From: Coptis chinensis
Taxonomy: Eukaryota > Streptophyta > Magnoliopsida > Ranunculales > Ranunculaceae
NCBI GenBank assembly: GCA_015680905.1
Contig: CM027378.1
Location: 71,267,501-71,331,500, forward strand
Direction of reading: 5' to 3'
DNA: 64,000 nt
The position numbers and the translations under genes are program-made. Shown here in pieces: positions 8,600 to 62,991 of this stretch. A model generated the notes under the pieces. That model ran no database searches. It worked only from the letters and a program-made list of their open reading frames with translations, and was not told the DNA's origin. Within the stretch, counting starts at the first letter, position 1; each line of letters begins with the position of its first letter.

Positions 8600-9811
8600 A
8601 GAATAAGTGTTCCAGGGATGTGGTAATGCTTGACCATCCTGTGTTTTGATCCAATATGCTCTATTGCCAACAACTCGCTCCACAATGTAAGGGCCTTCCC
8701 ATGTTGGTGCCAGCTTAGAGTCATCCTTAGTTTTTTTCAGGACTAAGTCCCCAGGCTGAAAAGATCGAGGATTGACTCGCTTATTGTATGACTTTTTGAG
8801 AGTTTAATGATAAGAGGCCACTCTGATGGTTGCTAGGTCACAACGTTCTTCAAGTAAGTCGACCTCTCGCGTGAGAATGGAGTCATTCTGTCATGATTCG
8901 ACGATTTCAGACCAAGTCGTGGTAACTGTCAGTTCGGTGGGAATAACGACCTCCACGCCATAGCATAGTAAAAATGGTGGCTCGCTTGTGCTAGAGCGAG
9001 CTGTAGTTCGATGAGCCCATATGATGTTCTCCAATTGATTCGACCATTGGCTCTTGTTCTTTTCAATCTTTTTCTTCAAATTTTCCAAAATTGCTTTGTT
9101 GTTGGCCTCTGCTTGGCCGTTGCTTTGGGCATACTGGGGAGTGGAGAATGCATGAATGATCTTCCACTTTGCCAGAAACTCCTTGACTATTTTTCCCTTG
9201 AACTGGGAGCCATTGTCCATGACAAGTGTATGGGGTAGATCAAATCTGGTAATGATATGTATCCAGATGAAGTTTCTGATGTGTGACTCTTTGACATAAG
9301 CTAAGGGGACCGCTTCCACCCACTTAGTGAAGTAATCAGTGACAGCAAGGACGAATTGAAATCCGGTACTTTTATGTGGGATGAATGGTCTTATGATATC
9401 TAAACCCCACATGTGAAATGGCCAAGGGCTGACGATGTTGATTAATTTGCGAGCGGGATGGATGATATTGTGGCCAAATGTTTGGCATTTGAGGCATTTC
9501 AGTACGTACTTGTTGGCATTTACCTGCATTCGTGGCCAGAAGTACCCTTGGGAGATCGCTTTGTGAGCTAAGGAGCGACCTCCAACATGATTCCCGCATT
9601 CGCCCTCATGGATTTCTGCGAAAATCAGCTGACCTTGTTCTGGGCTTATGCACAGCAAGTGAGGTCCGCCAGCAGACTTTCTGAATAGTTTGTTGTTGAC
9701 CAGGTAGTAGCGACATGCTTGATATTGAACTTGTCTGGCTCTGGCACGGTCTTCTGGGGTTATACCATGTTGGATGTACTCTATGATGGGTTGTATCCAT
9801 GTTTGACTCAT
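8600..9811 (-). pseudogene. Integrase region of gypsy element A (fossil)
   Basis: The order on the minus strand is as follows. An N-terminal His/Cys zinc-binding part (HEGECGNHVGG, then CLKCQTFG) comes first. The catalytic core follows with WGLDIIRPF and LVMDNGSQFKG for the two aspartates and NGQAEANNKAI for the glutamate. The chromodomain-less C-terminal part ends near 8610, where LAPTWEGPYIV-type sequence can be read in a short frame. These are typical of Ty3/gypsy integrases. Treated as part of a broken element. Confidence 0.88.
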
Positions 9812-10063
9812 CTGAATGTCAGAGAGTAGGCATAGGTCGCTGATTTCCAGGATGTGCTAAGCTTGGTAAGTAGGTCGGTCAATGACTTCGATAAGTAATT
9901 GTCTAAGGGCGCAGTTCAGTGTTTGAGTAGCAAGATAAACTAAACTATATGTGTGGCGATTCTCATCATGCAATAAGTGGTGTATGGTGGCTTTCTTGAA
10001 AGAAGGAAGCAATTGATAAACAACATGAAAGTATTTAGAAAGGTTACCTTCATGGGTAGTGTA

Positions 10064-16778: not shown

Positions 16779-16863
16779 AGATCTTAGCTCAAATGGTAGA
16801 GCACTTGGGAGATTGCATATTCATGTATCCGAAGGTGGTGGTGGTTCAAATCCACCAAGATCC
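16779..16863 (+). tRNA. tRNA-like sequence, possible tRNA-Ala-derived pseudogene or SINE head
   Basis: AGATCTT pairs with AAGATCC at the ends, except the first base. The D arm TAGCTCAAATGGTAGAGC is the exact D arm of plant tRNA-Ala and fits the A box. GGTGGTTCAAATCCACC forms a perfect T arm and fits the B box (GGTTCAAATCC). The middle, CTTGGGAGATTGCATATTC to ATCCGAAG, makes only an imperfect stem with a large loop, so the anticodon arm is abnormal or contains an insert. No poly-T terminator stands right behind it. A functional tRNA is unlikely; a tRNA-derived relic is more likely. Confidence 0.4.
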
Positions 16864-17323
16864 TTCATTTATCAGTCTTTTATTATGTAACAATGGTGTT
16901 AATGGATAAAACTATATGGTTGAATATGTTTTTAGTATTATTTTGCACAATAGTACATAAAAATTATTTAGTATTGTGTATGTTGTCATTGGTAGATTGT
17001 TGAGAAGTTCGCCGAGAGTGATCTTGTTTATAATTATTTTTTGTTTTTTCTTATACTTCATTGAGTTTGAAAAAAAAAAAAAAAAAATCCACTTGAAACA
17101 AAAGAGAGGAAAAAAACAATCTAAAAGTTGAAATATTATTTGCCATGGGAAAAAATCACGCAAACAAACACTGACAAAACTGACAAATCTCATATTTTTC
17201 CCCTATAATTTTTTGCAAACAAACACTGGCAAACTAAAATTTTCCCATTACAAATTTGCCTAGCAAATCTCTAGTGGAAAAACATTAGTAAATCTCATAT
17301 TTTCCCACTAGAGGTTTGCCACT

Positions 17324-18168: not shown

Positions 18169-20569
18169 GTGTTTCCTTTTTGCATTTGTGTTGTTATGTT
18201 GATTACTAGTGGTAGTGTGAGTGGGGAAGTGGCATTGAATCAGTCGAGGGAGACAACTGTGAGTGATGGAGATGGTGGTGTTAGGGCGCGTAGTGGAGAT
18301 GAGGAGTCATTGTCTTCCTCATTGGAGACGATGGCTGAGGAGGCGGTACCTAGGTCGGTGGTAATACTGTTGATTTGAAGGGGGAGTTTGGTTTGGATAA
18401 CTCCTACCTGGAAATATACGACCTGAGTGGTGAGAGGAACATATTTGGCTTGGATTACGTTCCTCGGGATGGGGGTGTTGTTGTTTGTTATGGGCAATTG
18501 AAGGCTGGGCTGAGGTTACCGTTCTAACGTTTTACTGTGGAGTTTTTGAACTTTTGTGGGAAAGCCCCTTGTCAGTTCGTGGGTAATAGTTGAAGAGTTT
18601 TACATGTGTTGGATTTGTTGAATGAGTGGGGTTATAACATATGTTTAACGGATGTGCTTGAGCATTTGTCGGAAAAGAGGTCGTCTGCTATGAATTTTAG
18701 TTTGCAGGTGTTAAGGGTAAATCTCATGTGATTGTGGGTGTGAGTAAGGAGGATTGGGGGAGTAGGCTTTTACTGGTCGTGGGTAATTATTATCCTTCTC
18801 ATTGGGAGTTGGCGAATCGTACTATAAAATGGGATGGTAGGTCATTATGTGATAGGTCGTAGTATATGTAGGTTAGTTGATATTACAATGTTTTGATAAT
18901 TTTATTTCGTTTTGCAGAGGTTGCGATTCGTGGGCGTACGAACACCGGAGCTATAAAAGAATTTGCTTGTTTAAGTTGGGAGGAGAACCGATCTATTTTG
19001 GGAGAGGTTGCGCATTACTTCAAGAAGCGTGGAGGTGAGAAGATCAACCGGAAGAAGATTGAGCAAAAGAAGAGGGCCCGAAAATTAATCTTTGAGATCT
19101 CTGATTCTAGCTCGGACACTAATCGAGATGGAAAAAGAGGATCAAAGGAAGGGGCCTGTTTCTGGGTCAAGGACTGTTGGAGGAGGCGTGCACTGGTAGC
19201 CGTCCTATGTCTAGACGACCTGCGGAAGGGGGTGAAAATGATAGGGGTGGACGTGGAGGTGGCAATGCTAGGGGAGGTGGTGATGTTCCTACTCCATTTC
19301 GTAGGCCTCATTTGAAGAGGCGAACTAAAGGTGGCAAACCTGAGGTGGCTAAGAGGACGCGACCTGAGCCTGAGGAACGACCTGTTATAGGGGAAGGTCG
19401 TACTTCATCAGGTCGGGCTCCTTTGAAAAGGATGAATCTGAAGGAGCTGGTGGTTGATGTCGGTGTTTCTGATGATAGGGGCAAGAAGAAGGCTAGTGAT
19501 ACTGAGCCAACTGCCCAAAAATGTAAAGGGTCTACCAGTACGTTCCAAGGTGATGAGGCTGGTAAGTCCAACGTTCTGGATAGGACGGTCACCTATTACG
19601 ATCCAGTGAGTGGGCTGACGCGACTGGTAAAGAATAAAGACTGCAGTTTCAAGTCTTCACTAGTTGGGAATGGATTGCTGTAGAATATTGTCCTTGATGG
19701 GGAGAGGAACGCGCTGGACACTAGAAAGGATCTGGAGGCGAATCTGAAAAACATGGATCACTCAATCTATTTTGTAAGTATCTTTCCGATCTGAGCTTTG
19801 TTTTGTGTTTTGTGTTTTGTGTTTTGTGTTTTGTGTTTTGTGTTTTGTGTTTTGTGTTTTGTGTTTTGTGTTTTGTGTTTTGTGTTTTGTGTTTTGTGTT
19901 TTGTGTTTTGTGTTTTGTGTTTTGTGTTTTGTGTTATTGATTTTTCACTTATTTTGTTGGTTTGTCAGGTTTTGGCTATGTATAGGAAGTTGAGAGAGAT
20001 GGTAGTTATTTTTGACTTGTATAAGAAAAAGCTGGAGGTTGCCAAGGAGACTTATGACAAATTGGTGGCTGTGCAAGAAGTTAAACGAGCTGAAGTGGTG
20101 GGGCTGAGGGCTCAGGTCGGTGATTTGGCTAGGAAAGTGGCCTTATTGTTGCCATCTCTCGACTCTTCAAGGGTGGAGGTAGCGCATTGGATTGCTAAGA
20201 GCGCGCAAACAATCACATGCCATTGTTGAACGAGCTCAGAAAGAGTACAACAACCTGGTCGATCTGGTAGATAGTGGTGATGTCTATGTTCTAGTGGATG
20301 ATTATATGGAACTAGATTGTAAGTACAAAACCTTGAAAAGGTCTGTTGAAAGTGGGGTTGCAACAGTAACTATAGAAAGTACTGCTGTAGATGCTAGTAG
20401 ACGATCTGCTCTTCCTACCGACTTGAGTGCTACCCCAGCTACCCAATTGACTGAGGATCCTGCTACTGAAGTGCTTACTGCAAGTGGAGATCTGGTTGGT
20501 GGCTCTATTGGTGAAGAGGGTTGCAATCTAGATCCCTTGAATGTGGAGAATATGTCTCGTGTCAACTAA
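18169..20569 (+). pseudogene. Antisense additional ORF of gypsy element B (putative gypsy-type transposon domain), fossil
   Basis: This gene runs opposite to gag-pol between integrase and the 3' LTR, the place of the extra gene of Tat elements. The N-terminal part has acidic Ser-rich sequence (SGDEESLSSSLETMAEEA). The stretch near 18430-18700 carries YVPRDGGVVVCYGQLKAGLR, FTVEFLNFCGKAPCQF and VLDLLNEWGYNICLTDVLEH-type sequence, close to the Pfam putative gypsy-type transposon domain (PF04195). A basic linker follows (KRARKLIFEISDSSS, FRRPHLKRRTKGGKPEVAKR), then a C-terminal coiled coil (ELYKKKLEVAKETYDKL-like, near 20020-20160). Splice-like borders are visible: TTTTGCAG before 18917, GTAAGTATC at 19768 and TTTGTCAG before 19969. 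The function of these proteins is unknown. Part of a broken element. Confidence 0.7.
19799..19935 (+). repeat. TTTTGTG minisatellite, about 19 copies, in an intron of the antisense gene
   Basis: A nearly perfect 7-bp period runs for about 135 bp. It lies between the donor-like GTAAGTATC (19768) and the acceptor-like TTTGTCAG (19961-19968), so it is probably intronic. The open frames through it (repeating Val-Leu-Cys-Phe) are artefacts of the repeat. Confidence 0.9.
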
Positions 20570-27938: not shown

Positions 27939-28826
27939 CAGGCAATCAAAGAAACAAAATACTAGTTAGAGATATTTACAACTTTCATACTTCAACAATG
28001 TGACCCTAAATTCATGAATCATTAGACAAACACCACGCTCAAAACGTCACACCCAGATGGACAATGACTTTTCATGGTGTATTTGTGTCTAGGGTAATAA
28101 GGAGTTACATGTTTCAAAAAGGATGTATATCCCAAGTTGTGAGATTTGTTAACACTCCAAACTAGAAAGGTTCCGAGCTTACTCATTGGCCTGCCAAGTA
28201 CGTTAAAAGGAGCTATGATCAAAGGAGCTATGATCGCTAGTGAATTAAGACATTACATCTATGGTGATGGAATATTTTCAAAATATGCAGATAATCCAGT
28301 CTATTAAGGTGCAATATTTTCGTAAGTTGTGTCCAAAGCTGCATGTATTATAAGTGAACACCGTATTAACTGCCTCGAGATTTCAAGTACAAGATTTTAG
28401 TTGATCAAGCATGCCAAAGCTTTAGAAAATGTTATATAGAATAGTGTCATATCTTTCCCTCATAATCAACGCCCAAGGGGATATGCATAAATGAGGTGTT
28501 TTACAATCGAAATCAAATTAATCGCAAATGATATACCACAACATGGAAATAGTCAAATTAACAAAGAAGAAGACTAATCAGTCAATCCAAGCCTCTACCC
28601 ATAAAAATAAAAAAAAGATTTTGGGGCCATTTCTTTCCAGGGTGCAAATTGAGAGACTTTTACTCCAAGAAAAGTGACATGGGTCCCTAGGTGGATGCCT
28701 GAAAGCCTAACTAGCCTAGTTGTAGTGGTTCACTTGGCCCCATACATACATTATGATGTTACCAGAATACATTAGATTTATGACTGATAAGATTCTTTGG
28801 TCCTTTTTCTTGCAAATAGAAACTAA
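27939..28826. other. CACTA interior without a recognisable gene
   Basis: This is AT-rich, and short frames on both strands show no family resemblance. It could be intron or untranslated sequence of the captured fragment above, or plain filler. Confidence 0.4.
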
Positions 28827-29281
28827 GAGCATCTCTAGGTGGACGTATCCGTGGTCGCATTCTTCAAATTTGAAGAAATGCGTCGGAATTTCCCGGAATT
28901 CCAACTCTAGGTGGTCGCATTCGTGGTCGCATCACCTGCTTGTTCGCATTCTTGTTCGCAAATTTGGCAATTTGGATGCGGATGCGGAGCGACATTAGTA
29001 ATGTCGCGCGCCATTACTAATGTCGCGCAACTTTATTGACTTTGACCCACAACCAAGGCGCGCCATTATCACTGTCGCGCGCCACTACTACTGGCGTGCG
29101 CCACTCCTAATGTCGCGTGCTCCAACGGGCAAAAAACGGGCAAAAAACGGCCTGATTTCTACCTTCTATATCTACACTCATCTCCTTCTTCATTGTACAC
29201 ACACTCAACTCAAACATTTGTATCAAACAACTCAACCATTTCACATCAATCCTTAACAAACAACACACACATTGCGAAAAA

Positions 29282-29980
29282 ATGGATCATGAAGTATATG
29301 AGATATTTCCGCTTAAGTCTTCATCTTCATCTTCATCTTCATCTTCATCGTCGTCTTCTTCTTCATCTCCTCCAGCGGAAGACTCGGTAGATAGTCTTGA
29401 TGAAGAATTTGTTAATGCCATGCCTCTTATGAAACACACTTTGGCTGTACTTGCACAAGCACAAGTACATGCTCCGAAGGCACCACATGGTGGTTCAAAG
29501 AAGGGTCGAAAAATTAAACATAGAAAATATGCTCTGACTTTGGAAATCTTGAAGAACAACTACTTCGCCGTCGATCGTCCGTCTTTCGAAGAGGATTTCA
29601 AACGGCGCTTTAGATGAAAAATCTTTATTTGTTCACATCTTCAACGATATTCAAACTCATTTTAAGTTTTTCAGCCTAAAGTTAACAATCTTTGGTAAAC
29701 CACGGTATAGATCCTCTGGTCAAGGTGGCTGCGACTTTCGCGTATTCTTGGTTATGGCACGATTAATGTCGATCAACTTGACGATCAATTATACATTTCG
29801 AGCAAAGTGGAAACCAGGCGTTGAGGCATTTACGTGATGCAATTATCAAATTGTACGGTTCAGTCTACTTGCGAAGGCCAAATATTGCAGATACAGAACG
29901 CTTGCTTGCACATTCTGCCACACTCTGGAATTCAGTGCTACATCTCAACGGATTACCTAATCCTATACTCAAACCAGATA
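29282..29980 (+). pseudogene. Truncated ALP1-like (Harbinger DDE) transposase
   Basis: The protein starts MDHEVYEIFPL followed by a Ser run (a TCA/TCT microsatellite) and an acidic stretch. It ends in KYALTLEILKNNYFAVDRPS and FEEDFKRRFR, the standard ...LxxDYF-x3-P-x-FRRRFR start of ALP1-like/Harbinger transposases. After a stop and a large internal loss, 29821-29900 reads LRDAIIKLYGSVYLRRPNIA plus DTERLL, the family's AxxxFCDAVIxLYGxxYLRxPNxxD block. The DDE catalytic core is missing altogether. The antisense plant-mobile-domain fragment begins about where the transposase resemblance stops. Confidence 0.7.
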
Positions 29981-30646
29981 TCATGCAAAAATCTAATGGA
30001 GTGAAGCCCAACTCTCCCTGAGGGAAGTGAAAAGTATGTGTACTATCCCACCATCTCTCAACTAAACCATTAATAACTCCCTGAATGTCAGTCTTATTGT
30101 AAGGGATGTCAACTAGATGAGCAAAAGGAGTCGCTAAAATTGCATCTCTAACATGGTCAAGTGCACCGACTTTCTTAATATCATCCCACCACGTCCTAAG
30201 CGCACGTGGAGTGCACCGAACCCGATACATAACACATCTCTGATGTACGCAAAATGAAACTAAAATTAAAAAAATAAAAATAAAAATATACGTATTGTAT
30301 TGAACTACTAAAATTAACTACTACTACTACTAATTTATGAAATTAAAATACATACCTGTTGTTCAAGAACAACTCTTGAGACATGCCTTTCATGAAACCT
30401 CTTAGACACCGGCCTAAGATGGCTGAAATCAATAGCCTCCGCAGGAAATTCAAAATCGACTTGCTGATATTGAAGCAGCAATGGATCGTCAGCCTCAGCT
30501 CCTTGATTTCCAGCTCCGGAAGTGGTTGGTTCATCATCTAGATCACCACTGGGATTATCCCAAATGTATGCACTGTTTTCTTCTTCCTCACCGCCACCAC
30601 TCCATCGTGTTTGGTTATTATAGACGGATTCGTCGTCGGAACTCAT
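29920..30646 (-). CDS. Plant mobile domain (MAIN/MAIL1-like) protein fragment, two exons
   Basis: Exon 1 (30646-30356) starts MSSDDESVYNNQTRWSGGG, is acidic, and ends HLRPVSKRFHERHVSRVVLE then QQ. A 116-bp intron (30355-30240, GTATGT..CAG) joins it in frame to exon 2: ALRTWWDDIKKVGALDHV, FAHLVDIPYN, LVERWWDSTHTFHFPQGE and LGFTPLDFCMISGLSIG. The block V-x-RW-x-ETHTFHFP-x-GE-x-TLxD-x-GLxxG is the core of the plant mobile domain found in MAIN and MAIL1 and in some transposons. Homology fades at about 29930, in the antisense of the transposase. The remaining frame to 29865 is therefore probably not native, and the domain's C-terminal half is missing. The start at 30646 was chosen over an upstream ATG at 30700, whose extra residues are hydrophobic and non-family. 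No stop interrupts the two exons. Whether it is expressed is unknown. Confidence 0.72.
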
Positions 30647-30946
30647 TTTTTTCCTACTAACTAGAGTGAATGAGTTGAAAAAAAAATTGTAAAATGACAA
30701 AAGTCCGACTGTCGCGCGACATTAAATAAAACACAGCACGCGACATTAGTCTTGGGGCGCCGATTAGACACGTCGCTACGACAATGGGCGATCCACGCCA
30801 TTACTAATGTCGCGCAGGTGGGTCCCCAATAAATTTTATGCACCATTTAATTTGCGACCACCTAGAGTTGGTCGAAATTTGCTATCAAATTGTGTGGTAG
30901 CATTCTTCAAATTTGAAGAGTATGCTACCACCACCTAGAGATGCTC

Positions 30947-31331
30947 TAAGACAGAGCTAACTTTTTTCATTTTCATTTATATCAAGCATATGCATTCCTC
31001 TTGAGTGCTTTATTCTATCATCCCATGTTCCTTTACAAGGAAGCTATGTTCTCAGGAGCGAGGTGCTAGGTTTCCCATGTCCCGCTCAAGCGACGCTTTT
31101 GCAACAATCAACAAAATTGTTCAGTTTAACTAAAATATGCCGCCTTTGACAGCATAGCATCTGCCGTTACTGGACTTGTGGGGTTGTCTGTCCCTTCTTT
31201 TAAGTCCAACTTATGATAACTATATAAATTATTTCTCCAAGCAATTTCCAAATTAATTCAACCTCGTGGTCATACTGGCAATAAAACATAAAATACAAAA
31301 GTACAAGGGGATTCCAACTTGTATGAAATAA

Positions 31332-53329: not shown

Positions 53330-54800
53330 CTAGCCAGGATTGGATAGAGCGTCCCTGTAGTCAGAAGGGACAGAGACAGACAACAAGGACGTAGCAAAAG
53401 ACTTGACAAATGGTGGTAAATGATTAGTGGAAACATACTGAGAAATAGAATACTGGGCATACTTACTAGGAAGACGCATACTGGCAGGTGGACGTTCAAG
53501 TTTCCGTAGGGCAATAGGAACATTGAGGTCAGACGGAATGACAATAGGATCCATAGACACAGTGGGAAGAGGTGAGGGCTGCGGAGCAGTGGAACTTTTG
53601 GCCTCAAGCTCGCGAACATCAGTTGCAGGCAAGGGGCGCGCACACACTCTTGTAAAGGCATCTGTAGGGCATGCACTCGCTCCGTCTGCTTGCTCTCCAA
53701 CATCAGTAGCGGTAACATGATCATTAGCTCCCTTATTAACACCCTCAGCCAACATTGGAGGGGTTAAGAGTACACTAGATGGAAGAACACAATCCTCAAA
53801 TGGTTCAGAGGACACCTTCCTTTCTGAAGAGTAAAATGGGACATCTTCAAAAAAAGTAACATCAGCACAGACAAAGGATTTGCGCAGATGAGGACTATAA
53901 TAGTTGTACCCTTTCTGTGTACGTGAATACCGAAGGAAAACACACTTAATACCACGAGAGTCCAATTTATCACTACTCGGTTGAAGATTATGAACAAAGC
54001 AGACACAACCAAATATACGAGGGGGAAGATGGAAAGAAGGTTGACCAGGAAAAATAACAGAGTGTGATGTTTTTCCACCTAACACTGAAGAGGGCATATG
54101 ATTAATCAAGTATGTGGCAGTAAGGACTACCTCTGCCCAATAAAACTTTGGGAGATTCGTTTGAAACATTAAGCATCGGGCAACTTCAAGAATGGGTCTG
54201 TTCTTTCTCTTAGCAACCCCATTTTGTTGAGGTCTATCCACACATGAGGTTTGATGTGTAATGCCATGGTCATCTAAAAAACACTTGAATATGGAAGAGG
54301 TATAATCTTTGGCATTATCAGTTCGAAAAACATGCATGTGTGCAGAATACCGATTAGTAATCTAAGTATAGAATTTTTGAAAGACAGAGAATACTTGAGA
54401 ACGATTTTCCATAATATATACCCAACAAACACGAGAGAAATCATCGATAAATGTAATAAAGTACTTGGCTCCAAAAAGGCCAGTGGTTCTACAAGGACCC
54501 TAGACACCTGAATGAACTAACTAAAAAGGAGCACTAGAACACTTATTTAACCTATCTTTGTAAGTAGCATGACGATGTTTAGCTAACTCACAAACCTCAC
54601 AACTTAATGATTGAATACTAGAAGAAATACTGGGAACTAAACTTCGCAAACTAGCCAGAGGAAGATGACCAAGACGTCTATGCCACTAAACAGGAGAGAC
54701 TGAGACTATGAGAGCCTACTTATGGTGAGAGTGCCCATAACCATCTTGAAAGTAATAGATGCCGCCATGCTCATACCCCCCACCAACTAGTGTCTTTGTC
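53330..54800 (-). pseudogene. Integrase region of copia element B (fossil)
   Basis: VFRTDNAKDYTSSIFKCFLD with the second aspartate, then HGITHQTSCVDRPQQNGVAK with the GVAKRKNRPILEVAR glutamate region. The copia-specific C-terminal block with FGCVCFVH and RGIKCVFLRYSRTQKGYNYY follows. Confidence 0.9.
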
Positions 54801-60640: not shown

Positions 60641-62991
60641 ATGTCTCAACCGATTCTAAAAGATTGGATGAATGAAAATGACAAACTTGGGAGTGTGTAT
60701 AGGCAGGGGGTTTCCGATTTTATTCTATTCGCTAGTGGCAAAGACGAAACGTCGACCACATGTCCTTGCCCATGTAACAAATGTCGAAATAGGAAAAGGT
60801 TTGCATATGATATAGTTAGAAAACATTTGATTCATAATGGTATAGAATCAACATATCGTGTATGGGATTTACATGGTGAGAACCCATATAAGGATCAAAT
60901 GGTAAACCGAGTTGAAGAAGAAAATAGTGAGGAAGGACTAGGGATAGGGAATTTTGTTGATGTTGCTTATGGCATGCATGAAGAATTAGTGGGTGATTTG
61001 ACCGAGGCGATGGAAGTCAAGCCAAGATGTTGAACCACCTATTGTTCTAGAACCCTGATTTAGGTAAGAGGTACAATGAATATAAGAAAAAAGCGAAGAA
61101 AAATTATACCCCTCATGTGAGGCTCTGTCCACAACCCTTTCTTTCGCCCATTTGTGGACCTCCATCACTTGAAGAAACAATATAATTGGTCGGGAAATAG
61201 TGTGACCACGCTTTTGTCTATGTTGAAAACATGGTTGCCTGATGGAAACACTTTACCTTCTAAGTATCCTGCAATGAAGGCAATGTTGAAAGATCTTGGA
61301 ATGAAAGCTGAGTGCATAGATGCGTGTGAAAATAACTGTATGCTATATTATAAGACTGAAGCTGATTTGACGGTGTGTCCTCAATGTGAAACTCCTAGGT
61401 ACAAAGTAAAGGAGGGGAAATCGGGAAAGAAAGAAACAAAAGAGGCGAGAAAAGTATTGAGACATTTCCCTTTGATTCCTAGACTCAAAAGGTTGTACAT
61501 TATACCATGGATAGCTCGTGAAATGACATGGCACAGTAGAGCGACACCTTCTTGGAATTATATGAGGCATCCAATCGACTTGCTTCAGTGGAAGACATGT
61601 AAAGATGATTGACCAGATTTTGCTAAGCAAGGGCGTAATGTTTGGCTTGGAATTGCAACTGATGGATTCAATCCACATGGTGTTCAATCCACTGGTTATA
61701 GTTGTTGGCCTATTTTTGTGGTGCCTTATAATCTGCCACCGTCTTTGTGCATGAAATCTGAGTTCCATATGATGTCGTTGTTAATACCTGGGCCGAAGGC
61801 ACCGAGTCAAAACATCGATGTATTCCTTAGATCACTAGTTGATGAGTTACAACAGTTATGGAAAGAAGGGGTGGTGACTTATGACATGCACAAACAGGAG
61901 CATTTTACTTTGAGGGCTATGTTGATGTGGGGCATTCATGATTTACTAGCGTATGGCAATTTATCAGGCTGTGTAACACATGGTTACAAAGGCTGTCCTA
62001 TTTGTGGTGATGAAACTCCGTCTATGCATCTTCGGAACACAAGGAAGATCGTCTATACAAATTACCGGATGTTTCTTAAATCTGATCACCCATTTAGGCA
62101 AGGCAAGTATTTAGGACTTAAGACAAAAGAGTTAAACCCTCCTCCGCCAAGGTTAAAGGGAGAAGTAATTGAGAAAATGTTAAGTCGTGTCCATTATGTA
62201 CCTAGGAAAGTATTAAAAGGTACCAAACAGAGTATAGATGATGTGGATGTGGTTGCTATTGGAGATGATGAAGATGATGAAGATTATGAAGTTACTGAAG
62301 CATGGTATAAGAGGTATATTCTCTTTGAACTGGAATATTGGCTGAAGCATAAAATTCGACATGTTATTGATGTGATGCACGATGAGAAGAACGTGGCAGA
62401 ACACATAATAAATGCGATTCTTGACAAGAAAGACAAAACAAAGGATCTGATTCGGGATTCGAGAGGATTTGAAGAAAATAGCGATTCATAGTGGTCAATG
62501 GATGCAAACAGACCCAATCACAGGGAGATCTGTTAAACCAAAGGCCCCATTTGTCTTGAATAAAGATGAGAAGCTTCAGTTCTACACAATTTTGAAGAAC
62601 TTAAAGCTTCCTACAGGTTTTTCATCGAACTTAAAAAATGTTGTCACTTTGAGTCCTCCTGGTTTGCTTACAATGAAATCACATGACTATCATGTGATTA
62701 TGTGTTACTTGCTTCCAGTTTTGCTTCAACACGCTTTTCCAAAACACCGCGATTTGCGTAGAGCTATTCATCAGATTAGCTTATTTTTTAATCTTCTATG
62801 CTCGAAAGTCTTAATCCGAAAGGAAATCCAAGATGCCAAATACATGGTTGCAGAGGCATTGTGTGTATTGGAAAAGTATTTTCCAACCGCTTTCTTTGAT
62901 ATCAGCATCCACCTCTTGGTGCATTTGGCTGATGAAGGGTTGATTTGTGGACCTATGTATCCTAGGTAGATGTATCCATTTGAATGGTATG
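60641..62991 (+). pseudogene. TNP2-type CACTA transposase, main part, with several disruptions
   Basis: The protein cuts and joins CACTA ends. It starts MSQPILKDWMNENDKLGSVY with the transposase-associated zinc domain (CPCPCNKCRNRKRFAYDIVR, HLIHNGI, W-LHGE). Next come GNSVTTLLSMLKTWLPDGNT, MKAMLKDLGMKAECIDACEN, CMLYYKTEADLTVCPQCETP, NVWLGIATDGFNPHG with the first catalytic Asp, WPIFVVPYNLPPSLCMK, LMWGIHDLLAYGNLSGCVTH and KGCPICGDET, IDVMHDEKNVAEHII, and a DUF4218-type end (LPVLLQHAFP, VHLADEGLICGPM, MYPFEWYVK). Damage seen: frame changes in 61033-61150, a TGA at about 61611 between KTCKDD and PDFAKQG, a frame change near 62480 and a TAG between MYPR and MYPFEW near 62967. The start ATG directly follows CTTGCAGG, so an upstream exon is possible. 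Confidence 0.85.

Follow-up and report, generated by a model that had tools for sequence, protein, structure and literature searches.

A short PIF/Harbinger element of Coptis chinensis is an internally deleted member of a modular transposon family with plant mobile domain genes

The small transposon described here lies in a 64,000-nucleotide stretch of the Coptis chinensis genome (contig CM027378.1, positions 71,267,501-71,331,500; hereafter the window) and derives from a type A element of about 4.6 kb by loss of the middle; it is non-autonomous. It belongs to a modular family of three element types – with common ends and TWA target site duplications – and in the copies sampled the two mobility proteins, a transposase and a Myb/NAM-associated protein, appear to be carried by separate elements that share their ends. 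We judge it probable, at roughly 70%, that the window copy arose by deletion within such a modular PIF/Harbinger family, whose element types would cooperate in trans through their common ends. An earlier first-pass annotation of the window described a PIF/Harbinger element in which a fragment of a plant mobile domain (PMD) gene meets a transposase fragment tail to tail, an arrangement borne out by full-length relatives in which both genes are present and convergent; it missed the modularity of the family and, as far as sampled, the allocation of transposase and Myb genes to separate element types.

The window copy is 2,120 bp long and has, as first described, perfect 16-bp terminal inverted repeats (TIRs) and exact TAA duplications as flanks; its features are listed in Table 1. 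Eight exact inverted 16-mer pairs with a spacing of 0.5-6 kb occur in the window, and a matching flanking triplet is present only at the 28827/30946 pair. The transposase part is frame-broken, with the DDE/catalytic region deleted, and because Pfam names no transposase on the pieces of the window element, its identity rests on the full-length relatives; the nearest copy to this part is L013 (94.4%), and the six nearest copies are all of type A. The two-exon PMD fragment on the minus strand, which the first-pass annotation had read as open over the 116-bp intron, is confirmed: the frame continues across the intron if spliced and meets a stop at intron codon 7 if unspliced, and exon 2 matches PF10536 at 37.1 bits (cut-off 34.9), although over profile positions 17-66 of 347 only. 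Within exon 2, 29923-30239 is PMD-derived and 29865-29922 is antisense transposase sequence (the last approximately 19 codons of the reading frame), so that as a consequence of the internal deletion the PMD reading frame is terminated by antisense transposase codons. The catalytic region, the remainder of the PMD, and the middle of the element are all missing. The idea that this copy is a lone oddity was rejected, its short length being due to internal deletion.

Table 1. Features of the window copy (positions are those of the window)
Feature	Position	Strand	Remarks
Whole element	28827-30946	.	internally deleted non-autonomous type A derivative; TIR/TSD search, both halves match full-length relatives
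Target site duplication (TSD) TAA, left	28824-28826	.	
TSD TAA, right	30947-30949	.	
TIR, GAGCATCTCTAGGTGG	28827-28842	+	transposase-gene side
TIR, exact reverse complement of GAGCATCTCTAGGTGG	30931-30946	-	PMD-gene side
Subterminal repeat cluster, ~21-bp near-palindromic, core CGCCATTACTAATGTCGCG	28989-29118	.	types A, B and C have the motif in their end zones too
Subterminal repeats, of like kind to the 28989-29118 cluster	30740-30815	.	opposite end
PIF/Harbinger transposase gene, N-terminal part, ATG at 29282	29282-29922	+	translation; match to transposase half; Plant_tran in full-length relatives
Internal-deletion junction	29922/29923	.	PMD match stops, transposase match starts
PMD gene exon 1, 97 codons, ATG at 30646	30646-30356	-	also present in relatives
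Intron, 116 bp, phase 0, GT..AG	30355-30240	-	
Truncated exon 2 including stop, start of plant mobile domain	30239-29865	-	PF10536 match; match to full-length relatives

Searches covered the 935.6-Mb genome (116 contigs, of which nine measure 85-125 Mb), and each DNA search scored the best 37-40 of 165-2,077 candidates. With 29865-30646 as the query, all 40 places scored (the best of 450 candidates, and including the window itself) share the PMD fragment, at 94-100%, and 33 of the 39 other matches stop at position 722 or 725 of the query – corresponding to window positions 29925 and 29922 – with the other six ending at 695-708. Twenty 10-kb loci around copies of the PMD fragment together with nine further loci yielded 24 elements that could be read from TIR to TIR. 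Type A, with the PMD gene and the PIF/Harbinger transposase, accounts for seven (L018, L025, L028, L034-L037); type B, with the PMD gene and a Myb/NAM-associated ORF1-like protein, for twelve (L009, L011, L012, L015-L017, L020-L024, L027); and type C, with a cysteine-rich CCHC-knuckle protein and the transposase, for five (L029-L033). No complete pair of ends was present in five of the first twenty loci (L010, L013, L014, L019, L026), among which L013 and L019 contain both type A halves. L010 was considered as a fourth type and rejected, since its match extends 72 bp into the transposase half and its coordinates indicate a truncated type A element.

In every full-length element the two genes converge tail to tail, the left slot being occupied by the PMD or the CCHC-knuckle gene, and the right slot by the transposase or the Myb/NAM-associated gene. 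Identical TSDs (TTA or TAA) flank 23 of the 24 complete relatives, with L022 taken at its outer TIR, and those of L031 are mismatched. When whole elements were used as queries, both ends were matched within 1 bp in 8/40 and 13/40 of the best-scored candidates for type A, 16/37 for type B, and 17/40 for type C. The trees have the star shape expected after a burst. Beyond the PMD end of L028 (G000:C9:46892170-46892674) there are fragments of this family directly alongside the element, with a further TIR-like end and TAA, possibly a small relative adjoining it.

PIF/Harbinger members that lack one or both of the transposase and Myb-like ORF1 genes are known as non-autonomous elements. The placement in this superfamily therefore stands on the TWA TSDs, the short TIRs, and the Plant_tran/DDE transposase (the last seen in the relatives), even though a transposase together with a Myb-like ORF1 on one element was found in none of the 24 complete relatives. 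A scan of IMG/VR for relatives outside this genome returned two pattern matches and no relatives.

In L033 the transposase has 446 open codons and matches PF04827 at 276.5 bits and PF13359 at 31.6 bits, and in L028 the Plant_tran match is 228.4 bits. Plant Harbinger ORF1 proteins carry a NAM-associated domain, and the right-slot protein of type B has such a domain (PF14303, 48.0 bits; cut-off 27.7), together with a Myb/SANT match at 16.3-18.4 bits that lies below the Pfam cut-off of 27; a PDB search with the Myb part gave weak matches only, the best being GT-1 (E 0.12). The left-slot protein of type C is 166 residues long with two CX2CX4HX4C knuckles and further cysteines – a motif read by eye – and matches no Pfam family above cut-off.

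We scored the partners of the 40 best matches to each of these genes, either within 5.2 kb or in the loci read. The Myb gene is partnered by the PMD half in 33 cases and by the transposase or the knuckle gene in none (seven have no partner assigned), and the transposase by the PMD half in 17, the knuckle gene in 18, and Myb in none (five without an assigned partner). For the knuckle gene the partner is the transposase in 27 cases, never Myb or the PMD, and 13 matches have no partner assigned, among them L041, which is a truncated knuckle piece only. Among the places listed, where one element may appear more than once, there are no transposase-Myb pairs within 8 kb (106 transposase and 69 Myb places), and no knuckle-Myb or knuckle-PMD pairs within the same distance (72 knuckle, 69 Myb, and 102 PMD places). 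PIF/Harbinger mobilisation requires both proteins, according to PMC2836001, and cooperation in trans between the types is thus the natural reading. Under it, transposase from type A or C and the Myb protein from type B would act in trans on the common ends, and the set would move as a consortium with short copies such as the window copy carried along.

The division could nonetheless be only apparent. In active PIF/Harbinger elements the two genes reside together, and if an autonomous element with transposase and Myb exists, or once existed, types A, B, and C would be non-autonomous swap products that it has amplified. We regard this as a serious, if minority, possibility. An element with both genes could exist beyond the sample, because only the best 37-40 of hundreds of candidates were scored; the few matches to either gene without an assigned partner leave room for it, and none of the sampled type B copies has been demonstrated to contain an intact Myb gene. 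Against it, none of the 35 transposase and none of the 33 Myb matches with an assigned partner has the other gene nearby, and the differences between the transposases of types A and C suggest that a constrained transposase has been kept in both lineages.

Those transposases form separate groups in the trees, and their fixed or near-fixed differences (nine type A and six type C copies) are 8 S to 4 N, compared with 87:187 on terminal branches (p 0.023). This suggests that the transposase is under constraint, the p-value being one of several tests. Branch ratios for the transposase, 0.46-0.60 on internal and 0.71-0.79 on terminal branches, do not differ significantly (p 0.31-0.74; the window copy was left out of the main runs as partial). 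For the Myb gene the internal ratio is 0.22-0.41 and the terminal 0.87-1.15 (p 0.13-0.20), with 9-15 internal N+S changes, and for the five knuckle copies the internal ratio of 0.88-1.45 rests on 2-4 changes, against 1.17-1.39 on terminal branches.

The PMD side of type A has 2.78 kb in common with type B, its last 1.79 kb are in common with type C, and the stretch shared between A and C starts approximately 10 bp beyond the stop codon of the L028 transposase, at the point where the 3′ sides of both genes meet; the combinations observed would follow if an end and its gene were exchanged as a unit. The types also share a subterminal near-palindromic motif of about 19-21 bp, which with up to 4 mismatches is present in the right zone of 23 of the 24 relatives, in the left zone of 13 of 24 (the zones of L022 being counted from its inner TIR), and in both zones of the window copy; simple base shuffles average 0-0.05, and the motif is absent from the element middle in the 24 relatives and the window copy. 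The Myb protein, the PMD protein, or the transposase may use these repeats as sites.

In the longer relatives the PMD gene is present at full length, as the first-pass annotation had proposed to check. It has two exons, of 97 and then up to 484 codons, and in L023 matches PF10536 at 121.3 bits over positions 13-300 of 347 (cut-off 34.9), which fits the suggestion that the window copy derives from an element family encoding the domain. The other suggestion made at that time, a Pack-type capture by the window copy itself, did not survive. Pack-type elements are small and non-autonomous and hold part of a spliced gene, a description that suits the window copy, and under this explanation the small element would recently have captured a fragment of a host PMD gene. 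However, the same fragment is in every one of the 40 places scored and in two element types, the relatives hold the full-length gene, and there is no close host parent among the other PMDs compared, leaving a recent capture highly improbable. PMDs are very common in this genome (3,775 first-look candidates, of which the best 117 were scored), and the family PMD is 22-27% identical to four others, among which identity is 33-65%; with a fifth (L042, the C-terminal part) it gave no significant match. Since identity to the four is so low, a recent copy from a host PMD gene appears unlikely on comparison with these five, and capture into an ancestor of the family is possible. The label 'MAIN/MAIL1-like' given in the first-pass annotation is too specific for this PMD, the comparison being with PMDs of the same genome, and a PDB search with an E limit of 1 turned up no relative of it.

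The PMD gene copies are in decay. None of the 27 sampled has both exons intact: exon 1 is open in 15, and only L023, whose exon 1 is broken, has an exon 2 without interruption over all 484 codons. The splice donor GT is kept in 27/27 aligned copies and the acceptor AG in 20/27. In a search with the PMD protein (97 scored of 3,347 candidates), 90 matches are interrupted by in-frame stops within the aligned part, and seven are free of them; among these seven, one spans the whole query and two start at position 12 or 13. The PMD halves of types A and B intermix in the trees, and their majority codons differ at 7 of 529 positions with none fixed. Higher-diversity patches in the PMD half (L009-L028, L034-L039) are found at matching positions across several copies, at about 75-225, 640-660, 975-1050, 1950-2025, and 2250-2450 in L023 element coordinates; some look like the same bases reshuffled. 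Errors of assembly where bases are modified, or else local gene conversion, may account for the patches.

Comparison of dN/dS across copies, also proposed earlier, could be carried out, and the signal for the PMD is weak and mixed, with amino-acid constraint not detected. After masking, the internal ratio is 0.56-0.70 in three runs with 24 copies, against 0.78-0.89 on terminal branches (p 0.08-0.57), and 0.63 with 26 copies; before masking the direction is reversed, at 0.79 internal and 0.71 terminal. The main runs left out the window copy, L026, and L014 as partial.

A contribution of the PMD gene to spread is to be weighed against the simpler explanation that it is a passenger between functional ends, with no role in the spread of the elements, an explanation we rate at a little below even odds. 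The widespread stops and the want of a copy intact in both exons speak for a passenger, as does the spread of type C without a PMD gene; variants shared by at least 4 of 24 copies are 21 N to 10 S, similar to the 161:88 of singles (p 0.84), and diversity in the intron equals that in the first third of exon 2 (both 0.042). Running counter to this, a full-length two-exon PMD gene is present in two element types, the domain has been retained despite deep divergence from other PMDs, and stops are rarer in variants shared by at least 2 copies (4/142) than in singles (22/271; p 0.035), though not in the class shared by at least 4 copies taken alone (0/31; p 0.14).

The proposal that the PMD helps the elements to persist by countering silencing follows a speculation made for PMDs on transposons, and we rate it as rather doubtful; the PMD protein would interfere with host silencing and the elements so persist, a weaker step in the scheme than cooperation of the mobility proteins. 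MAIN and MAIL1 are PMD proteins that silence transposons in Arabidopsis, and in the excerpts of PMC5418596 and PMC8616336, the origin of PMDs and their use by transposons are treated as open, Ty3/Gypsy and MULE elements are named as carriers of PMDs, and an anti-silencing use is suggested. The family resembles these carriers in that a transposable element encodes a PMD, and is unlike them in its superfamily and in having a separate convergent PMD gene with no transposase fusion; the excerpt of PMC5418596 names MULE and Gypsy only as carriers, and that of PMC7156037 treats genic PMD-C. Within the open-licence literature, the excerpts of two papers that mention both the plant mobile domain and Harbinger draw no link between them, and titles and abstracts contained no report of a modular family of this kind. 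With the present family, multicopy PMD genes of full length would extend to one more transposon superfamily, and the idea of counter-silencing becomes testable.

Other elements with additional genes offer partial parallels. The VANDAL elements with VANC anti-silencing proteins (excerpts of PMC5735166 and PMC10398659) are likewise DNA transposons with an extra gene, and clustered short motifs occur here in the non-coding end zones; unlike VANC, the extra gene here is a PMD known from sequence. Harbinger lineages have also taken up genes linked to epigenetic marks – TET/JBP in fungi and SET (HarbingerS) in oomycetes, according to PMC12730594 – although in other hosts and with other genes, and the TET/JBP families are described there as having the additional gene on the same element as the transposase.

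The family also resembles PIF/Harbinger elements such as rice Ping, in which a transposase and a Myb-like ORF1 are combined, and with which it shares TWA TSDs, short TIRs, a Plant_tran/DDE_Tnp_4 transposase, a Myb/NAM-associated partner protein, and short derivatives. It differs in that the transposase and Myb genes are never together in the sampled copies, each being paired instead with a PMD or a CCHC-knuckle gene (the knuckle with the transposase only). If true, the division of transposase and Myb over types with common ends would be a natural split transposon, in which the spread of the parts is interdependent. In its most complete form – in which no type is autonomous, A/C and B depend on each other through shared ends, the PMD on A and B, from a protein family that hosts employ in silencing, is a mobile counter-silencing module, and end-plus-gene cassettes are swapped where the convergent genes meet – the consortium is a scheme that we consider unlikely to be right in all its parts.

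The window contains several other features. An open fragment of a CACTA-type Transposase_21 (tnp2) gene is located at 61613-62491 (226.6 bits), and two pieces of retroelement integrase lie on the minus strand, one at 8891-9856 (rve and Integrase_H2C2) and the other at 53330-54361 (SH3_retrovirus and a weak rve match). The 7-mer TGTTTTG is repeated without error 19.6 times at 19799-19935, and there is a weak tRNA match (32.3 bits; gathering score 29) at 16779-16864.
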